The notes under the pieces were generated by a model. It was not told the origin of the DNA and made no database searches. It was given only the letters and a program-made list of their open reading frames with translations. Of a stretch of DNA of 64,000 nucleotides, positions 10,300 to 53,134 are shown piece after piece (the first letter of the stretch is position 1; each line of letters begins with the position of its first letter). This DNA is from Acetobacter persici JCM 25330. Its GTDB lineage: Bacteria > Pseudomonadota > Alphaproteobacteria > Acetobacterales > Acetobacteraceae. The stretch spans positions 1-64,000 of the forward strand of contig NZ_BAJW01000003.1 of NCBI RefSeq assembly GCF_000613905.1, in the 5' to 3' direction. Position numbers and translations under genes: made by a program.

Positions 10300-10391
<92 letters not shown>

Positions 10392-22070: not shown

Positions 22071-23210
22071 TTAGCTTATTAATGCAAGCTTTTCCCTGAT
22101 ATCTGACTCTTTCGCATTAACGTAGCGTAGAAGCATCTGGCTGGTTTTATGTCCTGACATACTAGCCAGTGCTCCGATTGAAAGCCCTGCATCTGCAAGC
22201 CGTGAAATCGCTTCATGTCGCAGATCGTGCATACGAAGATCAGGACAGCCAGCACGCTCTCTTGCTGTTCTCCATGTATTATCTATCGTTGTGCTTGATA
22301 CGGTGAAGAGCCAGCCTTCTTGGGTTTTGTGGCAGTTCTCTGCCATTAATTCGTGTACTGCGTCGGTTGCTCTCTGCGAGAGATGTATGGTTCTAACCGT
22401 GCCGTTTTTGGTTTTGGGTTTGCGTATGCTCCAACCCATCCGACCTTCTATGACTTCGGATTTTTTGGCTTTCAGGATTTCGCTTTTTCTCATTCCAGTA
22501 GCTAACGCAATCTCGAAGAAGGCTAGCATTTCTAAAACGTGCGGACCTTCCTTAATAGCGTCTCGCATTCTGTCTTCTTCAGTTCCGTGTAATCTGCGGT
22601 CTCTGCCTTCATCGGGTGAGGGGAGTAATATCTCCTTCACTGGATTTTTAAGGTCTTTTAAGCCCCAGCCGTGTTTCGTCTTTGGCTTCTTGGCTGTCTC
22701 AAAAATTACAGAGAGACGATATAAATCATTGCGGATGGTGGAAGGTGAGGGGTCATAATATTTATTACCCTTCTTAATTTTTCTGTTTATCTTCCATTCG
22801 TGTACGATTTCTGGGGTTATGTCTGTTAGCTTCATCTGAGCTAATTCAGTTTTTTCCCACATATTGAGTCTTAGAAGTGCTTGTTTTGCTCCATTAAGCT
22901 TATCAAGCTCTTCATATTTATATTTTTTTATGCAACGTAAAAGGGTCCATTCATATGATGGAGTGTTATTATCTTCTTTTGCTTTTGCTAATATCTCTTT
23001 GACGGAAATCTTTTTAATAGATTTCTTTGCAATGAAATCTTCTTTCCTGAACTTGTTAGCAGGATTTACTATTTCATCTTTTATCGCAATCTCAACTCTG
23101 TTTGCCCATTCATTAGCTTGTTGCTTTTTGGGGAAAGTTGAGGTAATAGAATGTCCATTGAGTCGGACAGTTGCAGTGTATTTAATTCCTCGTTTTTGAA
23201 CCTGTTTCAT
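22071..23210 (-). CDS. int: Tyrosine recombinase (integrase) of element 1
   Basis: 379 residues from ATG 23210 (MKQVQKRG). The C-terminal catalytic domain holds Arg in TGMRKSEIL, the HxxR box HDLRHEAISR, His in GHKTSQM and the nucleophile Tyr in LLRYVNA. The N-terminal part matches a core-binding domain. It would integrate and excise element 1 at tRNA-Ser. It sits 120 bp from the truncated tRNA copy, at the end opposite the intact tRNA. Confidence 0.93.
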   Translation of the reverse strand: MKQVQKRGIKYTATVRLNGHSITSTFPKKQQANEWANRVEIAIKDEIVNPANKFRKEDFIAKKSIKKISVKEILAKAKEDNNTPSYEWTLLRCIKKYKYEELDKLNGAKQALLRLNMWEKTELAQMKLTDITPEIVHEWKINRKIKKGNKYYDPSPSTIRNDLYRLSVIFETAKKPKTKHGWGLKDLKNPVKEILLPSPDEGRDRRLHGTEEDRMRDAIKEGPHVLEMLAFFEIALATGMRKSEILKAKKSEVIEGRMGWSIRKPKTKNGTVRTIHLSQRATDAVHELMAENCHKTQEGWLFTVSSTTIDNTWRTARERAGCPDLRMHDLRHEAISRLADAGLSIGALASMSGHKTSQMLLRYVNAKESDIREKLALIS

Positions 23211-23330
23211 TGTATATACGCTTGTTCGCCAAAAGCATTCCTTTCTTTCTATTGGGCGTCGAGAAAAGCAATACAACAACAAAAGCACTTTGTCAAGTAA
23301 AACAAGCAGAATACTGCCAATTGTGTTTTA

Positions 23331-23389
<59 letters not shown>

Positions 23390-25347: not shown

Positions 25348-26955
25348 TCATGCTGTCCCTCCTTCCATAATGGAGCCGGACACCGCATACACACGGAGGC
25401 GTCCTTCTCCCGGAATTCTGCGGTACCGGGTCAGGTTTTTCCCGTCTCCCGGCAAAAGATACCCAGCCTCAAGGAGAACCTTGGCGGCGCGGTTTGGGTC
25501 AATGCCCTTGCAGACCTCTTGCCTCCACATTTCAGGGAGGATCAGATATTCCCACTGGCAGCCATCAGGCGTGTCTGTCAGCCGCCTGAAGCCTACACGG
25601 GAGACGGTACGGCTGTGGGGATTTTCCACCTCTCCCTCTGGGCCGCCTAAAAGAGCGAACCGGCTCTCCCCGTGCTGCTCAATGAATGCCCGGACCTGCT
25701 CTATTGCCTCACGGTCTTCTGCTGCATCGGTCCCGCCACGCTCTTCCAGCCATGACTGGAAACAGGCTTTTGCCGCCCGTGTGGCTTCACCGCGGGCCCA
25801 CGGCAAAACGTCATAGGCCACAGCCAGTTCTCCCGCGGCGGAAACCAGTCCGAAGCGGCGCACGACTGAGCGCACCTGCCCATCCGCCGGGCCAGCAGGT
25901 AGACAGTCAGCTTCAAACTTATCCACCAGCCCCTTGATGCTGTCAGTCAGGCCGGGCTCATCATCATCCCGTTCTTTCACCAGTGCGGCCAGATAGGCGC
26001 GGCTGGCTGTCCCGTAGGAGGTGCGGGCTGCCCGGCGGATATGGTCGGCCAGTTCGCCAGCGGACGGCAGGCCGTGCAGGGCTTCGAACAAACCCATGCC
26101 AGCCCCGGCGTCGGCCTGTATGCTGACCAGCCTCACTTCCTGCCCCGCCATGGCCCGGCGCCCGATTTCTCCCATTTTGGTCGCAAGCGTCACTTCGCCA
26201 GTGGAGAGGAACAGGGAGCGCCATGTCTTGCGGGCGCGGGCCTCCCCATTACGACCAGCCCTCTGCTTGCCGGTATTGTTGGCGAGCATATAAGTAATGT
26301 CGCCCACTTCACGGCTGTCTGCCTGGCCCATTTCATCCAGAATGAGCAAGGTGTCGGAGGTCTCGCATGCGATGCCTTCCGTGCCGTTGCTGGTGCCTCG
26401 CCAGGACCGGACCATTCCGTCACGATCCCCTTTGCCCCAGACGGAACCGGCAGCATAAAGCGCCGTCGATTTTCCCGACTGGCTTTTGCCGATGATATGA
26501 AAACCGCCGGACTGCTCTCCCAGAATATCCAGAAGCGGACCGCAGAATGCGACCGAGAGTGCAAATGACAGGCGGCTGTTGCCGCTGGCATAAACGGCGA
26601 TTGCCTTTTGCCACTCCTCCAGCGTTCCGGCTGTGGCATATTCCGAGCCAGATGCGGCGCGGGTTGTCTGGAACGCAACAGCCTTCCGGCCCGCACCGAG
26701 CGTAATGCCATTGGGCAGGACAAAGGCTGGCCCCCGGTCCGTTTTATGCCAGCCCGAATTGGTAACGCACCGCAGGCGGGTTTTGGTGAGGACGGCTGCA
26801 ATAAACTCTTTGAGACGACGATTTTGTGAAATCGAACAGTTCAGGCCGGCATCTTCCAGTTCGCTGGCAATCTCCCTGCCTTCGCTATGCACAAGCCTTC
26901 GTGGCAGGCTCCATTGATGATAGCGCCTGTCACGATCAAGCCAGCTGATGAGCAA
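25348..26955 (-). CDS. DUF927 helicase/ATPase domain (C-terminal part of primase-helicase)
   Basis: 535 residues counted from TTG 26955. It contains Walker A GKSQSGKST and Walker B LLILDEMGQ, the core of DUF927 ATPases, which are fused to primases in phages and integrated elements. In the same frame, separated only by a TAA at 26986-26988, lies the Toprim-containing gene. The residues around the stop (WVSAPFEVIA, then TRDENGTGWGLL) read straight through as a DUF927 N-terminus. One protein broken by a stop, or a base error. Confidence 0.85.
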   Translation of the reverse strand: MLISWLDRDRRYHQWSLPRRLVHSEGREIASELEDAGLNCSISQNRRLKEFIAAVLTKTRLRCVTNSGWHKTDRGPAFVLPNGITLGAGRKAVAFQTTRAASGSEYATAGTLEEWQKAIAVYASGNSRLSFALSVAFCGPLLDILGEQSGGFHIIGKSQSGKSTALYAAGSVWGKGDRDGMVRSWRGTSNGTEGIACETSDTLLILDEMGQADSREVGDITYMLANNTGKQRAGRNGEARARKTWRSLFLSTGEVTLATKMGEIGRRAMAGQEVRLVSIQADAGAGMGLFEALHGLPSAGELADHIRRAARTSYGTASRAYLAALVKERDDDEPGLTDSIKGLVDKFEADCLPAGPADGQVRSVVRRFGLVSAAGELAVAYDVLPWARGEATRAAKACFQSWLEERGGTDAAEDREAIEQVRAFIEQHGESRFALLGGPEGEVENPHSRTVSRVGFRRLTDTPDGCQWEYLILPEMWRQEVCKGIDPNRAAKVLLEAGYLLPGDGKNLTRYRRIPGEGRLRVYAVSGSIMEGGTA

Positions 26956-26985
26956 CCCCCACCCGGTCCCATTTTCATCACGGGT

Positions 26986-27876
26986 TTAGGCGATCACCTC
27001 GAACGGTGCTGAGACCCAGACCGGAACAGGAGGAAGTTCACCGGTAGCTTCAGAGGTAAAATAGAGGCCCTTGCTGGTCATGCTGTACCCGGGGGGCATC
27101 TTCACGTTTGATTCCGCCAGTGGGGCCTGATCCACCAACGGGCGGAGGATTTCGATTCCTGGCGTCTCACCGCCCTGCGTCATGTCTAGCGGCAGATCAT
27201 CCGCTAAATCCCAACCGTCCGGCAGGCCTTCCGGCACTTTCACCATATGGACAGACTGCACCCCAGCATTGCGAAGGGCCTCAATCGCGGCATCAGCGTA
27301 TTTAACCCCCGGCGCATCATTGTCCGGCCAGATTGTGACGCGGCGGCCAGCAAGAGGGGACCAGTCGGCAGAGCTGACGGACGTGCTGCCACCGCTGGTG
27401 AGCACTACCAGATCAGGAAACAGGTAACTGGCCGCCTCTGCTGTCTTTTCGCCCTCCACCAGAAGCACGGTTGCCTCAGGGTTGGCAGCCAGTTGATCCA
27501 GCCCATACAGGGGGAGGGGGCGAGCAGGTTGCTTCCAGTGCCAGCCGGTGACATCACGCCTTGTCCCATTCCTGTCAGTCCAGATGCGGCGTCCGTAGGT
27601 GAGGGGCAGGACAACTTTGTTGCCGCCTTCATCTTCTTTGCGGAATCGCGCATAAAGAGGCCGCCTCTCTGCATCACGGTAAACCCACAGAGCGGTTGCG
27701 CCGCGGGGACTTTCCGGTACGGAAGGAGCCGGGGTTATTGGCTCCCAGACTTCGCCCTGTTTGCCGTCCTGGGCATTCAAAGCAAGGGCGGTTTTTTTCT
27801 CAGCGTCTGTCAGGGGTCTGAAAAGCCCGGCCTCATTCATGCAGGCCATAGCTGGAATGTTCGGGAGTGTGCTCAT
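26986..27876 (-). CDS. Toprim-domain primase (N-terminal part of primase-helicase)
   Basis: 296 residues. A Toprim domain is seen in VLLVEGEKTAEAA (about residues 137-149) and TIWPDNDAPG. The end PVPVWVSAPFEVIA is the beginning of a DUF927 domain, cut by an in-frame TAA. Together with 25348-26955 it would make an approximately 840-residue primase-helicase for replicating the element. Its start overlaps the upstream gene. Confidence 0.82.
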   Translation of the reverse strand: MSTLPNIPAMACMNEAGLFRPLTDAEKKTALALNAQDGKQGEVWEPITPAPSVPESPRGATALWVYRDAERRPLYARFRKEDEGGNKVVLPLTYGRRIWTDRNGTRRDVTGWHWKQPARPLPLYGLDQLAANPEATVLLVEGEKTAEAASYLFPDLVVLTSGGSTSVSSADWSPLAGRRVTIWPDNDAPGVKYADAAIEALRNAGVQSVHMVKVPEGLPDGWDLADDLPLDMTQGGETPGIEILRPLVDQAPLAESNVKMPPGYSMTSKGLYFTSEATGELPPVPVWVSAPFEVIA

Positions 27877-33963: not shown

Positions 33964-34810
33964 GTTCCCGTCAGGGTGGCCGGAGATCCCCGGTCAGGGG
34001 GAATATCCCCAGAGGCAGGATCTGGCCTTTGGGAGTTTTCCGCAGCATGCAGCCGTTCCAGATCCCGCAGGATGGCAGCACTGTCATTGTAAGTGCCCTG
34101 ACTGGCTTCCTGAAAGCGGAGGCGGATAATCACGTCCGAGAGGTCGCGGGCCTCAATCTCTTTGTTGATTAGATCACCCAAAGCCCAGCGCCGGAAGTCG
34201 GCCCCTTGGCCAAGATAATTATACTGGCTGTTGCTGTCCGCTATGTTCCGGTCGTCATAGAGCTTCTCCCAGTAATCGTATTCCGCAATGGCAGCGGGAA
34301 TGGTGTCAGGCCATGGCTTGACCGTGGCGAGGGCCGCACGAACGCGCACGCTCGGCTGAAGTGTTCCCCGTCCCATGTGTCACACTGCCCAGCCTTTCCT
34401 TTCTTGTGGAAAGGTTTGATTACCGCATCATAGGCCTGTTCTTCTGCGGTGGGCGCGAACACAGCCTCCTCTGAGCCATAGCGGGTCAGCACTTCATCCA
34501 TCTTGGCGCGATTGGCCATACGCCATGCTGCCCGCTTCTTCTCCTCAGCGCGGGCATATGCGCGCTGGTGCGCTGGGTTGCTCATGTCATAGAAGGTGAA
34601 GCCACCTGCGGAGGGCTGGGGCTCGTCGTCCAGATACCCCTCCGTGAGAAGCAGGTCAGGCACATCTGCCAACGTGTAGCCATGGGGCTTAACCAGAGCC
34701 TCGGCCCGGTTGCGCGCTGCAGCCTGCTCTCCGGCGTCTCCCCGCTCAGCCAGCGCCCATATTTTCGCCAGACGGTCGAGATTGAGTTTGTTCTTATGCT
34801 GTCCGGCCAT
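33933..34810 (-). CDS. DUF2786-like protein (frameshifted)
   Basis: Start MAGQHKNKLNLDRLAKIW at 34810, with AGGAG upstream. LAKIWALAERGDAGEQAAARNRAEAL fits the DUF2786 N-terminal helix pair. Near 34380 the frame shifts (DTWDG then TLQPSVRVRAALATV), and a helical part (AAIAEYDYWEKLYDDRN) plus a Pro-rich tail follow. Two operator-like palindromes sit upstream. It is the first gene of a leftward unit. Confidence 0.6.
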
Positions 34811-34823
34811 CTGTCCCGCTCTC

Positions 34824-34888
34824 CTGTTCACAATGAACAGTGCGCGTGACTAGCAGCAGGTACAAGCGGAGGTGTTCATATTGAACAG
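34824..34888. promoter_or_regulatory. Two TGTTCA-N3-TGAACA palindromic operators
   Basis: CTGTTCACAATGAACAG at 34824-34840 is a perfect 7-bp palindrome. GTGTTCATATTGAACAG at 34872-34888 has one mismatch. Centres are 48 bp apart, just upstream of the leftward DUF2786 gene. This is a typical dimer-binding repressor pair. Confidence 0.7.
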
Positions 34889-36528: not shown

Positions 36529-37736
36529 TCATTCCGGCATGTCGGTTGTCCCACCCCCGCGCTGAACGCCAGAGTGGGTATGCTCTGTAAGGCTGATGCT
36601 GCCAGCTTTAACGTCACCGGACGTGCTGATGTTGCAATCGAACGTGGCGCTGCTGGCAGAGACGGAAAATTCACCCTTTGTCCGCACCTTTACACCATTG
36701 CCGGTCAGCCAGATGTATTCTTCCGGGATGCCATTCAGGAAGCCACCGATGTAGAGCCCGTCGCTCCAGCTATGGATGTGATGGCTGCCGGGGCCGCTTG
36801 GCGCGCGGGCCTGCTTGATGCTGGAAATATCACGGCTTGCGAACACGGCCAGCCCGATATCACCTATGGCCGGATCAACGATAACGGCGCTCTTGCCGCC
36901 CTGTAGGCGAAGGTAGGGCAGGTTAGTCGCCCGGATCAGGTCATTCACCCCGGTCATCTGGGGAGCAAAATCGCTTTCAATCTGGCGGCCCAGCGCAGAG
37001 GTTGAGGTCTTTAGGCGCTCCTGAGAATGAACAAGTGCCGCGTTGGCTTTGGTCTGTTTTTCTGTGACCTCTGCCCCATCTTCCTGCGCCTCATGCAGCA
37101 TCCGTTGAATGGCGCCAGAGCCTGAATTGACCAGAGGGAGAACACTATCTCCAAAACCAAAGCTTCTGGCCTGCTGGGTACGCCTGCGCATATCCTTGAT
37201 GGTGGACAGGTAACGGAGGGCATTCTTGAAAATCTGTTCCGTGCTGAGGCGTTGCCGGTCTTCCCGTCCAGAACGGCGATGCCGGAGCGCTGCATCTGCT
37301 GGAGCTGGGAGGAGAAGGTCTTGTTCAGATCCCACTCTGCGATGGAGGAACTTATAGAGGCGAAGGTCTGACGGATACCCTCCGCACTCCCTCCGGCCAT
37401 GCGGGCAGCAGCCTCCCACTTTCCAAGAGATGCGGTGGAGGTGTCGATGGTTTGCGAGAAATTCCGTGTCGCTATGACGTTGGCACTGGTCTCCTGAAAG
37501 AAGGCATTGAGACCTCGACCCGCCGTGACGACCGTGAGCAGCCCCAGCACCTGTTCACGGACATTCCTGACAGATTCAGCGACACGAGTATGGGCCTGCT
37601 CGATCCCCTTGGCATTATCCGTCAGCCGCGCGCGCAAGCGCTTCAACGCACCTTCTGTTTGCTGAGCGCCTTTTACGACCCCTTTGGCATCAAGCCCCAG
37701 AGAGATGACGAGGGAATCAATGACCGTGCTTGTCAC
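36529..37736 (-). pseudogene. Phage tail tape-measure N-terminus fused to Gp138-like baseplate spike
   Basis: Starts at GTG 37736 (MTSTVIDSLVISLGLDAKGV), a tape-measure N-terminus with helical repeats. After a one-base shift near 37265 it continues (STEQIFKNALRYLS). Around 36920 it passes directly into PYLRLQGGKSAVIVDPAIGDIGLAVFASRD, a membrane-puncturing spike (Gp138) domain ending EHTHSGVQRGGG. Two genes that are normally separate are joined, so a deletion removed most of the tail module. Confidence 0.7.
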
Positions 37737-38043
37737 GGCATAGTTTCTCCGGGCTCAATCCAATAGAGGACGTACCGGCTGCCCAGACCGTCATAGGCCG
37801 GGTTGCTGTCAGTTTTCCCCTGCTGATCAACAAACACGAGATCGCCCTTCATTCCGAGATATGCACGGCGGACAATCCGTGTGCGGTCCTGGCACAGGAT
37901 GCCCGCAAGGATTTGCTTTCCGTTCAAAGAGATATCGGCATAGAGCCAGTGCTTCTCTGGCGCAGCGTCATCTCTACCTTCTGCCCTCCCAGAAGGACGC
38001 TCAGAGACTGCGAGGGGACTGCGGATAAAGGGATAGTTTGCAT
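37733..38043 (-). CDS. Phage baseplate plug-like protein (frameshifted)
   Basis: ATG 38043 opens MQTIPLSAVPSQSLSVLLGGQKV. After a shift near 37955 it continues WLYADISLNGKQILAGILCQD to YLGMKGDLVFVDQQGK. This matches the short baseplate plug proteins of myophages. It overlaps the tape-measure start. Part of the tail remnant. Confidence 0.65.
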
Positions 38044-38046
38044 TGC

Positions 38047-38433
38047 TTAACTCTTGCTTGTTACGGGAACAGGGTTCACCTGCCCGATATTGACGAGGGG
38101 GGCGCCGGATGGCTCTTTTGTGGTCAGGGCGCTGGCTCCTGTGCGGGCAAGTGTTGCCCTGGCACCTCCTCGCACTTCTTCAGCGCCAATCATGAGCCGC
38201 AGCATTGAAGGTGATCCTCCTTGGCGTAGATCCCGCTCGACATGCGTGATGTTCATATTCAGGTAAGTGGCTTCCGGGGTGGCTATGCTGAAGAGGTCCG
38301 TGGATGCAGCAGCAGCCTGCACGGCCTTGTGGAAGCTTTCGCGTGCGGCGAGGTCTCCGTCACAAATTAGCATCACGCGCACCAAGTTGGGCATGGCGAC
38401 TTTATTTACGGAAGCAAAAGCCCCTTGTTCCAT
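38047..38433 (-). pseudogene. Phage tail-associated protein, 5'-truncated
   Basis: The frame is open from 38547 (DFKHWGIFTSDNQPFATSSH) but has no start there; the first ATG is at 38433. It ends SGAPLVNIGQVNPVPVTSKS. It precedes the plug gene as in myophage tail modules. The 5' end runs into the relaxase gene, marking a recombination junction at about 38500-38550. Confidence 0.5.
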
Positions 38434-39755: not shown

Positions 39756-40085
39756 TCAGGCGACCATCGCCCGGCGCACAGCATCAGGCTCACGCCACAG
39801 AACCCGCAAGAGCGTTCTCACGGCAGGGTCCAGACCAACCCGGCCCTGTTCCCAGTTCCGCCACGTTGCGACCGGCACGCCAGCCAAAGCAGCAATCTCC
39901 TTCTGGGTCAGCTTCAAATGGCGGCGCACGGTTGCCGGTGTCGGGTAAGGCAGACCCGGCAATTCGTTATCCGTCCCGTCTTCCTTGGCGTGCCGGTCAA
40001 TGTCTTCGTCTGTGGTCGCGTTCACGCGCTTCCAGTCAATGCTGGAAGGCCGAGCTTTGATTTCGGCCAAGGTCATTCTTGCCAT
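39756..40085 (-). CDS. XRE-type antitoxin (BrnA-like position)
   Basis: 109 residues from ATG 40085 (MARMTLAEIKARPSSIDW). The N-terminal part resembles BrnA/HTH antitoxins. The helix-turn-helix LTQKEIAALAGVPVATWRNWEQGR is clear. It directly follows a BrnT-like toxin gene, so it should neutralise the toxin and autorepress. Confidence 0.82.
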   Translation of the reverse strand: MARMTLAEIKARPSSIDWKRVNATTDEDIDRHAKEDGTDNELPGLPYPTPATVRRHLKLTQKEIAALAGVPVATWRNWEQGRVGLDPAVRTLLRVLWREPDAVRRAMVA

Positions 40086-40350
40086 TTTAACCACTCCTTC
40101 CGGTGCATCTTGCGGGCTGAGATAATGCGGAGGCTGTCACCTCTGGGGTATAAACAACCATGAAGGGCACGCCTTCAATCAGGCCCGCGGCTCTGATGCG
40201 GGCTTCTCCATAGTCCTTGCGGTCGTCTGCTTGCTCGATGACAGGGCCGGCAAAGATCATCAGGACATCGGCAAAGCTGAAACCGCGCTCTTCAAAGCAG
40301 GCATCGCTTTTCGCATCATCCCACTCGAACGATTTTGGCCCGTCTGTCAT
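40073..40350 (-). CDS. brnT: BrnT-family toxin (frameshifted)
   Basis: FEWDDAKSDACFEERGFSFADV and EARIRAAGLIEGVPFMVVYTPE are BrnT landmarks. One missing G near 40143 restores GDSLRIISARKMHRKEW, the conserved end (RIISARkaxxkE). BrnT is a RelE-fold ribonuclease. The restored end overlaps the antitoxin start. Confidence 0.85.
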
Positions 40351-41227: not shown

Positions 41228-41632
41228 ATTACGCGCACGCGCGCGAGGGACGGCCCTGCACGGCCCCGGAAAGCAGCCCTCCGGCAGAGTTTTTAATTAC
41301 GAAAAAATTACCATGAACCACACGAAAACAATGACTTAGAAGAAAACGCTAAATCTTGCCCAGGCGGCCAGTTTCGTTTGATTTCCGCTCTCTGTCAGGG
41401 GCAGAAAACAGCCATCGTTTGAAAAACAATCAAACGCACAGAAATCAAACCATCTCGGGCACAAGAGGCGTTGAGAACAAGGGGGCTGAACAGGGCGAGT
41501 TGCACAATACGCGCGCGCGCGCGCGAGGGCATGGCGGCATTGGCTGCGGTTTCAAACGCGGGAAAACCGCGAGGGTCGGGATATTCCCCGAGGCCCGAGT
41601 TACACAATACGCGCACGCGCGTGCGCGTGCGA
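41228..41632. repeat. Three alternating GC/AC repeats
   Basis: CATTACGCGCACGCGCGCG (41227), CACAATACGCGCGCGCGCG (41502) and CACAATACGCGCACGCGCG (41602) each end in GAGG. The two right copies share GAGTT(G/A)CACAATAC. Alternating purine-pyrimidine tracts of this kind can adopt Z-DNA. The region contains no convincing gene. Confidence 0.65.
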
Positions 41633-41677
41633 GGCTGGCAGATGATAATGCGCGGGAACAGCCAGCAGGCCCCCGGT

Positions 41678-41850
41678 CACTGCTCTTACAGTGGCAAAGC
41701 AGTGTGAGAAGGTTGGCCGTCCGCTGCTAACAGCGGCAAGCAGCGGGAAGACCTGCTTCTACAGGTCATAAGCAGGAGAACCCCTCCGCCTGATAACAGG
41801 CAGTCTGGGGTGGTTGTGTTTGCTGCTAACAGCGGCTCTGAGCAAACGAA
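41678..41850. repeat. Array of about five related hairpin units
   Basis: Units at about 41678, 41720, 41752, 41788 and 41822 share CTGCT-N-ACAG, and the first three add a second GCAG copy. Examples are CCGCTGCTAACAGCGG followed by CAAGCAGCGGG, and CCTGCTTCTACAGG followed by TCATAAGCAGG. In each of the first three the left arm can pair with either of two right arms. It lies directly before a terminase-small-subunit remnant. Confidence 0.65.
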
Positions 41851-41887: not shown

Positions 41888-42110
41888 TTAAGGTTGGGCA
41901 GGCCGCTATTCGGGCCGGGTATAGCGAGAAAACGGCAGGAAGGATCGGCTCTGAGAACCTCAAAAAACTTGATATCCAAGCGACGCGCCCTATTGAAAAA
42001 AGTTGAAATCCAAAACGCGATTTCGGAGCTTGGATTCGCTGGAAATTGTTGACAAATGTTGACATTCAAAACGCGATTTTAGCGCCTGCTAGTCAGACAG
42101 CTAGGGCATA
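41888..42110 (+). pseudogene. Terminase small subunit remnant
   Basis: From 41888 one frame reads VKVGQAAIRAGYSEKTAGRI and GSENLKKLDIQA, the HTH of phage TerS (NATQAAIRAGYSxxTA). It is cut by stops. Two further degenerate pieces follow: KKVEIQNAISE (about 41997) and LTNVDIQNAIL (about 42047). No start codon. A decayed packaging gene. Confidence 0.55.
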
Positions 42111-42118
42111 TTTGCAGG

Positions 42119-42235
42119 GTGGTCCGACCGTCCCGACCGGCATTTTCACAGGTCGGGACAGGTATTGGTTCTAAAAAATGGCAGATTTCAGCCATATTTA
42201 GATGGTGTCCCGACTGGTCCGACCGTCCCGACCGA
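42119..42235. repeat. GTCGGGAC repeat cluster B
   Basis: GGTCCGACCGTCCCGACC at 42121-42138 and again at 42216-42233, with an inverted GTCGGGAC (42152) and a GTCCCGAC (42207). AAAAAATGGCAG lies between (42173). Same architecture as cluster A at 25211-25314, here just downstream of the integrase. Confidence 0.75.
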
Positions 42236-42262
42236 AAAAAGCAATACCGGATGGGGTTTTGT

Positions 42263-43461
42263 TCATCCCCGGCAGTGTGCTGCCCAAGCCTTCATGAGAG
42301 GGCGGCGCTGGTCCAGCAGATCAGTCCTGCGGTAAGCCGCCTCAACCTTGTTCTCTATGGCATGGGCAAGGGCCATTTCCGCCACGTCACGCGGGCAGGC
42401 ATTGGTGTCAGAGGTCCAGTCCCGGAAGGTGGAACGTAGGCCATGTACGGTCACGTTCTTTGTCTTGGCTGCAAGGTGAAGCGCCTTGCTCAGAGCAACG
42501 TCAGACAGAGCCTTACCCCTCTTGTGTCCGGGGAAGACAAGATCCCCGGCGGCGGGGTCTCGGAGGGGGAGCATTTCCTGAAGGACGCCCAGAGCATCAT
42601 CAGACAAGGGCACGCGATGCTCCCGGCCAGCTTTCATCTTGTGGTCAGGGATGGTCCAGATTTGGGCCGCCATATCAATTTCAGACCAGACGGCGTTTCT
42701 TACTTCCCCAGACCGGCCAGCCGTCAGGCAGCAGAAGCGCACGGCTTTGGCGGCAATGCCTTCAGATGACTGGAGGGCTGACATGACGGGAGCTATATCC
42801 CTCCACGCCAAAGCTTTGTGGTGCTGAACCTTCATCAGCTTGGACGGAGGGGGCAGGGTGGCAGACAGGTGCCCCCGCCAGCGGGCCGGGTTCTCGCCGT
42901 CACGCCAGCCTGAGCGCGGGCATAGTCCAGAATGCGCTCAATACGACCACGGATGCGTCCTGCTGTTTCGGTTTTCTCTGTCCATATTGGACGGAGGGCG
43001 GCCAGCACATCCTGAGTGTCGATATCGCGAACGGTTTTCCCGCCAAACACGGGAAAAGCATGCTGGCTGAGAGAGCCTGTCCATGTTGCGGCGCCTTTTC
43101 TGTTTTTCCAGCCGGGTGCCTGCTCATGGATGTAACGGGCGGCCACCTCTTCGAAAGTGACGCCGATCTCTAGTTTCCGGGCAGCCTTCTCCTTCTCCCG
43201 CTCAATGATTGGATCAAGGCCGCTTTTTATCTGGCGGCGGGACTCGGAAGCATGGGAGCGGGCGTCAGCCAGAGAAAGATCAGCCGCACTCCCGAGGCCC
43301 ATCTGCCGCCGCTTCCCTGTAACAGGGGATTTGAAGCGTAACTCCCACAAACGAGACCCACCCGATACCACCAGCCAGAGACCCCCTCCGTCGCATAGGC
43401 CTCCGCTTTTGTGTCGAGACACCTGCAAGGCGGTTAACTGGTTGGGTGGAAGTCGGCTCAT
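42263..43461 (-). CDS. int: P4-type tyrosine integrase of element 2 (frameshifted)
   Basis: From ATG 43461 (MSRLPPNQLTALQV). A DUF4102-type N-terminus (HKSGGLCDGGGLWLVV, KRRQMGLGSAADLSLADAR) is followed by a SAM-like core-binding domain and the catalytic domain: Arg in TAGRSGEVRNAVW, HxxR in HGLRSTFRDW, His in ALAHAI, Tyr in VEAAYRRTDLL. One shift near 42890 (RTRP then RWRGHL). It targets tRNA 3' ends and lies 150 bp from the right att copy. Confidence 0.92.
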
Positions 43462-43607
43462 AGTATTTACCCCTCTTGTTACCCCCCTTAAAACATGGGC
43501 TTTGGAGGTACGTCCAGAAACAACCGTGGACGGAAGAGCGGGCAAAAGCCTAGGATATAAAAGGATTTTGGAACGCCGTGGGACGTGCTGGGACGATAAT
43601 TAGGCGG

Positions 43608-43623
43608 ACTCCCTCTCCGCCAT
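43608..43623 (+). repeat. attR of element 2
   Basis: CTCCCTCTCCGCCATA, identical to 23375-23390 at the end of the middle tRNA copy, and matching the tRNA 3' end CCCTCTCCGCCA. It marks the right border of the element array. Chromosomal genes resume after it. Confidence 0.8.
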
Positions 43624-52774: not shown

Positions 52775-52895
52775 AAACTGGATGATACGCCAGACCTCAC
52801 GCAGACTTTTGGTCTGCTCTGTGTGCATTGTCTCTTGCAAGCCGGGCGTATTCACCCCATCATAATAAACGCGGTTGTCTTGTGTGCAGCCGTGA

Positions 52896-53036
52896 CGTTC
52901 TCAGGGCAGGGTGAAACTCCCTACCGGCGGTAAGTAACGGTTTTCCGTTATAAGCCCGCGAGCGCCTGCTTCGGCAGGGTCAGCAGATCCGGTGTAATTC
53001 CGGAGCCGACGGTTACAGTCCGGATGAGAGAGAACG
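52896..53036 (+). promoter_or_regulatory. FMN riboswitch (RFN element)
   Basis: P1 is GTTCTC (52897) with GAGAGAAC (53028-53035). Conserved core parts are AGGGCAGGGTGAAACTCCCTACCGGCGGTA split over two arms, AGCCCGCGAGCG, TCAGCAGATCCGGTG and GCCGACGGTTACAGTCCGGATG. It should repress the rib operon when FMN is abundant. It lies about 100 bp upstream of ribD. Confidence 0.95.
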
Positions 53037-53134
53037 GTGCAGACCTTTGGGTCTCCGCGTCTGGTGCGGAGGCGCAAGGGGTGACCTCTGCTATCTGCCC
53101 TGAGTCTGTCTGGTAAGATGTTTTGGGCAGATAG

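Follow-up and report, generated by a model that had tools for sequence, protein, structure and literature searches.

An array of five hairpin-like units at positions 41678-41848 of a 64,000-nucleotide stretch of Acetobacter persici JCM 25330 DNA (hereafter the window) is a candidate cluster of pac- or cos-type recognition sites for phage small terminases (TerS), a reading which, judged from sequence comparisons, we consider probable on balance but not strongly so. The element that carries the array is satellite-like, having a tRNA integration site and primase-helicase-type genes (DUF927, Toprim) of its own. The first-pass annotation of this DNA had offered two explanations, namely a packaging site kept by a satellite or a folded RNA; the former is favoured, since the half-site plan of the units coevolves at the 5' ends of genes of a TerS-like family, DUF5681, and since the element is satellite-like, but the TerS-like sequence adjoining the array turned out to be Terminase_2, which is another terminase type. 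Four objections weigh most against the packaging-site reading: the core of the site is missing from half of the DUF5681 genes; most related integrase loci have no strict site, which lowered our confidence slightly; decay has affected part of the element; and no phage site that was found resembles units 1 and 3.

The inner left arms of the five units, all read on the forward strand, begin at 41678, 41721, 41750, 41788 and 41822, a spacing of 29-43 nucleotides. Units 1-3 have an exact left arm, right arm and second right arm, with the second copy 4-6 bases on: unit 1 (41678-41704) reads CACTG, loop CTCTTA, CAGTG, spacer and CAGTG, and has an ortholog in A. indonesiensis and a relative in genome G032; unit 2 (41721-41746) reads CCGCTG-CTAA-CAGCGG-CAAG-CAGCGG; and unit 3 (41750-41776) reads GACCTG-CTTCTA-CAGGTC-ATAAG-CAGG. 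Unit 4 (41781-41815; GCCTG-ATAA-CAGGC plus outer arms) and unit 5 (41814-41848; GCTG-CTAA-CAGC plus outer TTTGCT/AGCAAA, a form also seen in G032, L303 and L304) are nested hairpins with a weak second right arm, so that the initial description of tandem units in which each left arm has two possible partners fits units 1-3 exactly and units 4 and 5 weakly. A script that demanded a perfect stem of at least 5 and a loop of 3-7, and scored a repeated right arm as a third arm, found four perfect hairpins, three of them with a third arm, within 173 nt. Not one of 2000 dinucleotide shuffles had as many as three third-arm hairpins (the mean was 0.014), and among 1277 sliding windows across the 64 kb the array was the single one that did; the number of hairpins alone was less special, being reached in 0.65% of shuffles and in 14 of the 1277 windows. 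The folding energies of the array were below those of shuffled sequence on both strands (z-scores of -3.68 on the forward and -4.53 on the reverse). The array was not among the repeats listed by Tandem Repeats Finder, isolated phages and plasmids gave no DNA-level match to it, and an identity as a known RNA family was rejected because an Rfam search returned no match at the gathering score. The array was likewise rejected as an att core, the attachment sequence being the tRNA-Ser 3' end at 43611, on the opposite side of the integrase gene.

Five of 49 Acetobacter genomes, that of the window included, gave DNA-level matches with the array and the TerS stretch. Three of these have two or more units: the window and its closest relatives in this respect, A. 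cibinongensis with units 2-5 and A. indonesiensis with units 1 and 5. In the fourth genome (G004) the match is between unit 2 and the 5' end of a DUF5681-domain gene directly before the large terminase, and in the fifth it is confined to TerS. Related arrays lie in two other Acetobacter elements, and one to three diverged units lie in three more elements. Among further loci that were read, L024, L026, L027 and L028 had no DUF5681 motif, and in L023 and L025 the match covered the TerS part only. A pattern search matched eight genomes and five loci were read, L303 and L304 being kept for context and L300, L301 and L302 being judged chance matches, while the reversed control pattern gave one match among the matches listed; of the covariance-model matches other than the array, G032, G004 and G023, six (G021, G040, G046, G048, G002 and G014:C177) were inspected and judged by eye to be chance. 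As these searches yielded few credible places, the array was rejected as a dispersed genomic repeat.

Covariation over homologues had been proposed as a check, with a lack of conserved arm complementarity in relatives as the outcome that would count against the units. Pairing was in fact kept in the relatives with changes in both arms: CTG-loop-CAG is constant in the aligned units and the outer stem bases vary together. In alignments A2 and A3, whose units were chosen partly by their CTG..CAG core and include one, G32b, that was found with a filter demanding a stem of 5 and so leans towards pairing, standard pairs (G-U pairs among them) filled 98.3% of cells in the ten units whose loop has 4 bases (85.0% after shuffling) and 93.3% in the five whose loop has 6 (72.6% after shuffling), and 0 of 500 shuffles were as high in either set. 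Pairs changed on both sides, a weak measure, were as frequent in 45 of 500 shuffles for the 4-base-loop set and in 104 of 500 for the 6-base-loop set, and some second right arms are, by reading, missing in A. cibinongensis; because the unit sets are partly core-selected, unit covariation alone is not decisive. Between the window and A. cibinongensis, identity is 81% over units 2-5, 79% over the integrase gene, and 53% and 71% over neighbouring non-coding stretches, the highest value, 89%, being that of the region which reaches from the array through the first terS fragment (F0-F1).

The same plan recurs outside these elements, at the 5' end of DUF5681 genes from diverse phages, where YTG-N4-CAR is followed by a second CAR 10-11 bp on, as in GCGTTG-AAAG-CAACGC-AAGT-CAACG, ATTG-CTAA-CAAT-GCATAA-CAAT and TCTG-AGAA-CAGA-ATTGGAG-CAGA. 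Viral contigs and genomes of the Acetobacter family supplied the DUF5681 genes, and 98 rows with the motif FxKGxSGN were clustered at 80% identity over 60 residues to 65 representatives, a count that takes in motif-bearing genes only, genes without FxKGxSGN being left out; the viral loci number at least 80. A complementary YTG-N4-CAR core is present in 31 of the 65 non-redundant 5' ends, against 4.4% of 502 control stretches, and absent from the other 34. Direct repeats of 5-mers were found at a spacing of 11 in 26 of 65 loci, against 9.8% of controls, and at a spacing of 10 in 12 of 65, against 10% of controls; within the range 6-20 the enrichment of right-arm repeats was clear at a spacing of 10-11 and at no other. 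The perfect triple site occurs in 12 of 65 loci, where 100 shuffles gave a mean of 0.69 and a maximum of 3, and eight control offsets gave 0-2 of 57. Loops of 3, 4, 5, 6 and 7 separate YTG/CAR cores with a stem of at least 4 in 1, 18, 5, 0 and 2 of the 65 loci, respectively, and perfect 5-bp stems exceeded controls at loop 4 (29% vs 13%), loop 6 (20% vs 13%) and loop 8 (23% vs 14%). Two isolated phages carry part of the plan, phiAX1 as CACTG-CCAT-CAGTG and PBR31 as AACAGC repeats at 12 and 11 bp.

The three half-sites change together. At positions unused for selection in the 31 core sites, the left arm (L) and first right arm (R1) agreed in 37 of 62 comparisons against a permuted 17.9, R1 and the second right arm (R2) in 34 of 62 against 17.5, and L and R2 in 34 of 62 against 17.1, each level being reached in 0 of 20,000 permutations, which ignore kinship among the 31 sites, so that relatedness is limited by the clustering alone. 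The second arm starts with CA in 21 of the 31 sites, and its third base is shared with the first arm in all 21, a level reached in 1 of 20,000 permutations (mean 11.7). Such coevolution could fit either an RNA with two alternative partners or a DNA site that is read by several identical subunits. According to the former, the left arm would pair with either right arm as a switch or leader that controls terS translation, and the array would be a decoy or a 3'-UTR structure; the joint coevolution of L with R1 and with R2 agrees with this as it does with DNA half-sites, and the G-U pairs, the strong fold z-scores and the nearness of sites to start codons speak for it as well. However, the right-arm repeats are fixed at a spacing of one helical turn, which is needless for RNA, and a DNA site is favoured for that reason; moreover, the array has no Rfam match at the gathering score and no intact terS gene to control, and the position of the phage sites relative to the start codon varies, several lying upstream of or across it and several phages having the site inside the coding region. 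We therefore regard control by RNA folding as quite unlikely.

Two further explanations bear on the same gene starts. A dyad with direct half-sites at the start of a gene would suit a transcriptional operator, bound by TerS or another phage repressor that controls terS, with the copies in the element serving to titrate or sense that protein, but the sites within coding regions are at odds with it, and packaging would better explain why a copy lies beside integrases in elements where no terS was seen; an operator is, in our estimation, distinctly improbable. The units might instead be a coding remnant only, that is, repeats of a TerS N-terminal peptide motif resembling AANSGKQR, and by reading units 2 and 4 do resemble DUF5681 N-termini in one frame. 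This is very improbable, as the units lie in different frames and the sites upstream of or across the start codon are included in the three-way coevolution.

DUF5681 itself is probably a small terminase family, as judged from a sequence profile and, weakly, from the predicted fold. A profile of 57 members returned as the first of 20 hits the TerS of PaP3 (6w7t, E 1.1e-5) and that of NV1 (7joq, E 1.7e-5), which makes these the nearest solved relatives by profile; in a fold search with the predicted DUF5681 model the same two structures came out on top, though weakly: their Z-scores were 5.1 and 5.0, and an unrelated chain followed at 4.6. A comparison with viral models gave none at E 0.001 or better. 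The resemblance differs from a full match in that it is limited to the C-terminal core of PaP3 TerS and leaves aside its DNA-binding N-terminus; in the model, three helices at residues 36-81 match that core and residues 1-35 are without a helix, and no triple site was found within the 4 kb read around PaP3 terS. The TerS family PHROG 2538 was matched by 13 of 57 members and a PHROG of unknown function by 49 of 57. The TerL gene directly follows the DUF5681 gene in both loci checked (G004 and PBR31). No DUF5681 gene was found in the draft genome to which the window belongs. As to packaging modes, STGO-35-1 is described, in the available part of its report, as a headful-packaging phage with a DUF5681 protein in its structural proteome (PMC8954984), and 9NA, similarly consulted, as a pac headful phage (PMC4153490), two sequence pieces of which showed no DUF5681 motif. 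The available portions of the papers on phiAX1 (PMC8566455) and PBR31 (PMC10975493) yielded no packaging information, and look-ups of Mecenats66 (PMC9503643, in part) and Jersey gave none that was useful.

In the mechanism that we propose, a full site would consist of three half-sites of 5-6 bp, the first inverted, the next direct after 4 bp, and a second direct one a helical turn further on, an arrangement that many DUF5681-type terS genes have at their 5' end. A TerS ring would contact all three half-sites from the same face of the DNA, and packaging would start at that point. The satellite-like tRNA-Ser element would carry five such units beside its integrase, and units resembling two phage terS lineages might allow its DNA to be loaded by terminases from more than one helper. 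Binding by TerS, packaging and the use of several helpers are what we infer from the sequence. Single units do have phage counterparts: unit 2, of which 32 bp are 94% identical to coding sequence at the 5' end of a DUF5681 gene, has its best match at the terS start of L313 (score 28, control maximum 13), and unit 4 matches the terS starts of L321, L428 and L426 (score 18, control maximum 10). Since units 2 and 4 match different terS starts, at least two terS lineages are represented by similar sites in the array. Unit 5 was barely above controls, units 1 and 3 gave no match above controls among the 65 phage terS starts, and their 6-nt loop occurs in 0 of those 65.

The first-pass annotation had placed the array immediately before TerS-like sequence. 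That sequence is real, but it starts about 50 bp after the array and consists of three tandem partial copies of one Terminase_2 terS segment (41898-42079, forward strand) instead of a single one: F1 (41898-41978), an internal fragment that is 95% identical over 81 bp to the intact phage terS of L029 and whose frame matches Terminase_2 at E 3.5e-8; F2 (41993-42027), 91% identical to the terS of A. senegalensis; and F3 (42034-42079), at 83%. Another match of the TerS frame beside the array is to phrog_17390, a family of 69 residues without an assigned function. By reading, the Terminase_2 frame is broken both in the window and in A. cibinongensis. Five intact Terminase_2 terS genes had no raised codon conservation over the F segment, and F1-F3 are thus without support as a DNA site. 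The remnant belongs to a terminase type other than DUF5681 and is not what identifies the array. A wider version of the packaging-site reading, which we put forward tentatively and consider doubtful, is that the satellite keeps the sites of several unrelated helpers, of DUF5681 types as well as the Terminase_2 type of F1-F3, in one array, and so could be loaded by whichever helper arrives. If this were true, the array would be a lock with many keys and a record of the helpers that the lineage has met.

Copies of the tRNA-Ser(cga) 3' end at 10378, 23377 and 43611 delimit two tandem islands, of which the second holds the array, and an integrase lies at the right end of each (22071-23288 and 42263-43545). 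The satellite-like element runs from the tRNA-Ser 3' copy between the islands (23377-23388, forward strand) to the copy at its right end (43611-43622, forward strand). Its tyrosine integrase (42263-43545, reverse strand) consists of two overlapping frames, and the gene starts 66 bp inside the right end; the frame break at 42835 is either that of a pseudogene or an error of the draft assembly. Genes of DUF927 and Toprim primase type lie at 25348-27876 (reverse strand), and in L437 and L438 the site is followed by a 347-aa protein, a homolog of which is encoded here at 34241-34831 (reverse strand). Between array and integrase, at 42117-42236, are direct and inverted repeats of GTCCCGACC, iteron- or arm-like, whose motif differs between species, and analogous GGTGTGAC repeats are present in L303 and L304. 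The counterparts of the GTCCCGACC repeats are CACGACC in A. cibinongensis and mostly CCCGACA in A. indonesiensis, a seemingly concerted change. No intact terminase gene was seen among the element proteins scanned, and none of the P4 core genes psu, delta, sid and epsilon was seen among the proteins scanned, which are a subset of the ORFs. Tail-block remnants, comprising a truncated tape measure and a phrog_1830 protein, lie in the island at 36529-38433, and the A. cibinongensis relative has such genes.

The island is colinear with the compact elements L437 and L438 of other genera, at 44-69% identity over five proteins besides the integrase, and these elements span about 13-15 kb, with the integrase at one end and a 283-291-aa protein at the other. 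A homolog in L438 matches the DNA primase PHROG, and there were no structural genes among the seven L438 proteins scanned against PHROGs, whereas the element of the window has tail-gene remnants. L437 and L438 each carry one unit-5-type motif just after the integrase and the repeats. In all, unit-5-type motifs lie near the integrase in three other DUF927 elements (G032, G266 and G234), and in the third element, G032:C107, two such units stand between the integrase and the primase gene, with a third candidate at the integrase end. In its orientation relative to the integrase, the motif of L303 and L304 differs from the others. L303 and L304 diverge right after the motif, where one of them has what is presumably a HigBA toxin-antitoxin pair, so that the site borders a cargo spot. 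In the flanks of 32 integrase-family loci, a strict site was found in four (L193, L213, L217 and L220), two of which are the array itself, and the site is therefore not general beside these integrases.

These observations bear on a more sober account, according to which the terS fragments derive from decaying prophages and the hairpins were inherited from sites that once functioned, with no present role. The partial decay of the element, visible in its two-frame integrase, its truncated tape-measure genes and the want of an intact Terminase_2 frame in the window and A. cibinongensis, accords with such fossil debris, as do the F segment, with no excess codon conservation in intact terS genes, and the 28 of 32 integrase-family loci with no strict site. 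Against it, the array has been kept at 81% between species, like the integrase gene, unit-5-type motifs recur near the integrases of related elements in other genera, and five consecutive units with covarying stems are unlike random debris; we deem it unlikely.

Among the helper phages of known satellites, 80alpha is a pac phage. SaPIbov5 is comparable in that, as far as the consulted part of the source goes, one satellite uses helpers of different kinds, namely 80alpha-like phages and cos phages such as phi12 (PMC6893505); that capacity was reported from experiment, whereas for the array, with its five units of one general type and its terS fragments, it would follow from sequence. The cos site of P4, which lies between the integrase and psu (PMC8628076), and the cos or pac sites of PICIs and SaPIs (PMC8628076, PMC10111431) are, in the parts of these papers available, likewise satellite-borne signals for packaging by a helper near an integrase. 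The array differs from them in having several diverged tandem sites, two of them like different terS lineages, in its three-half-site plan, and in that its helper is a putative one. The cos binding site of HK97 is also a short sequence recognised by a TerS ring, but, according to the available part of the report, it needs 15 bp with an A-tract (PMC11331095), whereas the site in the array would combine a dyad with a further direct half-site at a distance of one helical turn. A limited literature search met the name DUF5681 in one paper and found no description of an array of sites like those of different terS lineages. If the packaging-site reading is right, it supplies a predicted recognition site and a spacing rule for DUF5681, a broad and likely small-terminase family, which could be read across many phages, and it would mean that the helper range of a satellite can be assembled piece by piece.

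Some minor features of the window were also noted. Upstream of the array, 41496-41535 and 41596-41635 are diverged copies of an alternating CG tract after GAGTTxCACAATACG, and A. cibinongensis and A. indonesiensis each have a single related CG tract before the array. The island also holds a BrnT-like toxin (40087-40350) and its helix-turn-helix partner (39756-40094). Elsewhere, 52893-53039 is an ordinary FMN riboswitch, followed by an ORF that we take to be RibD.
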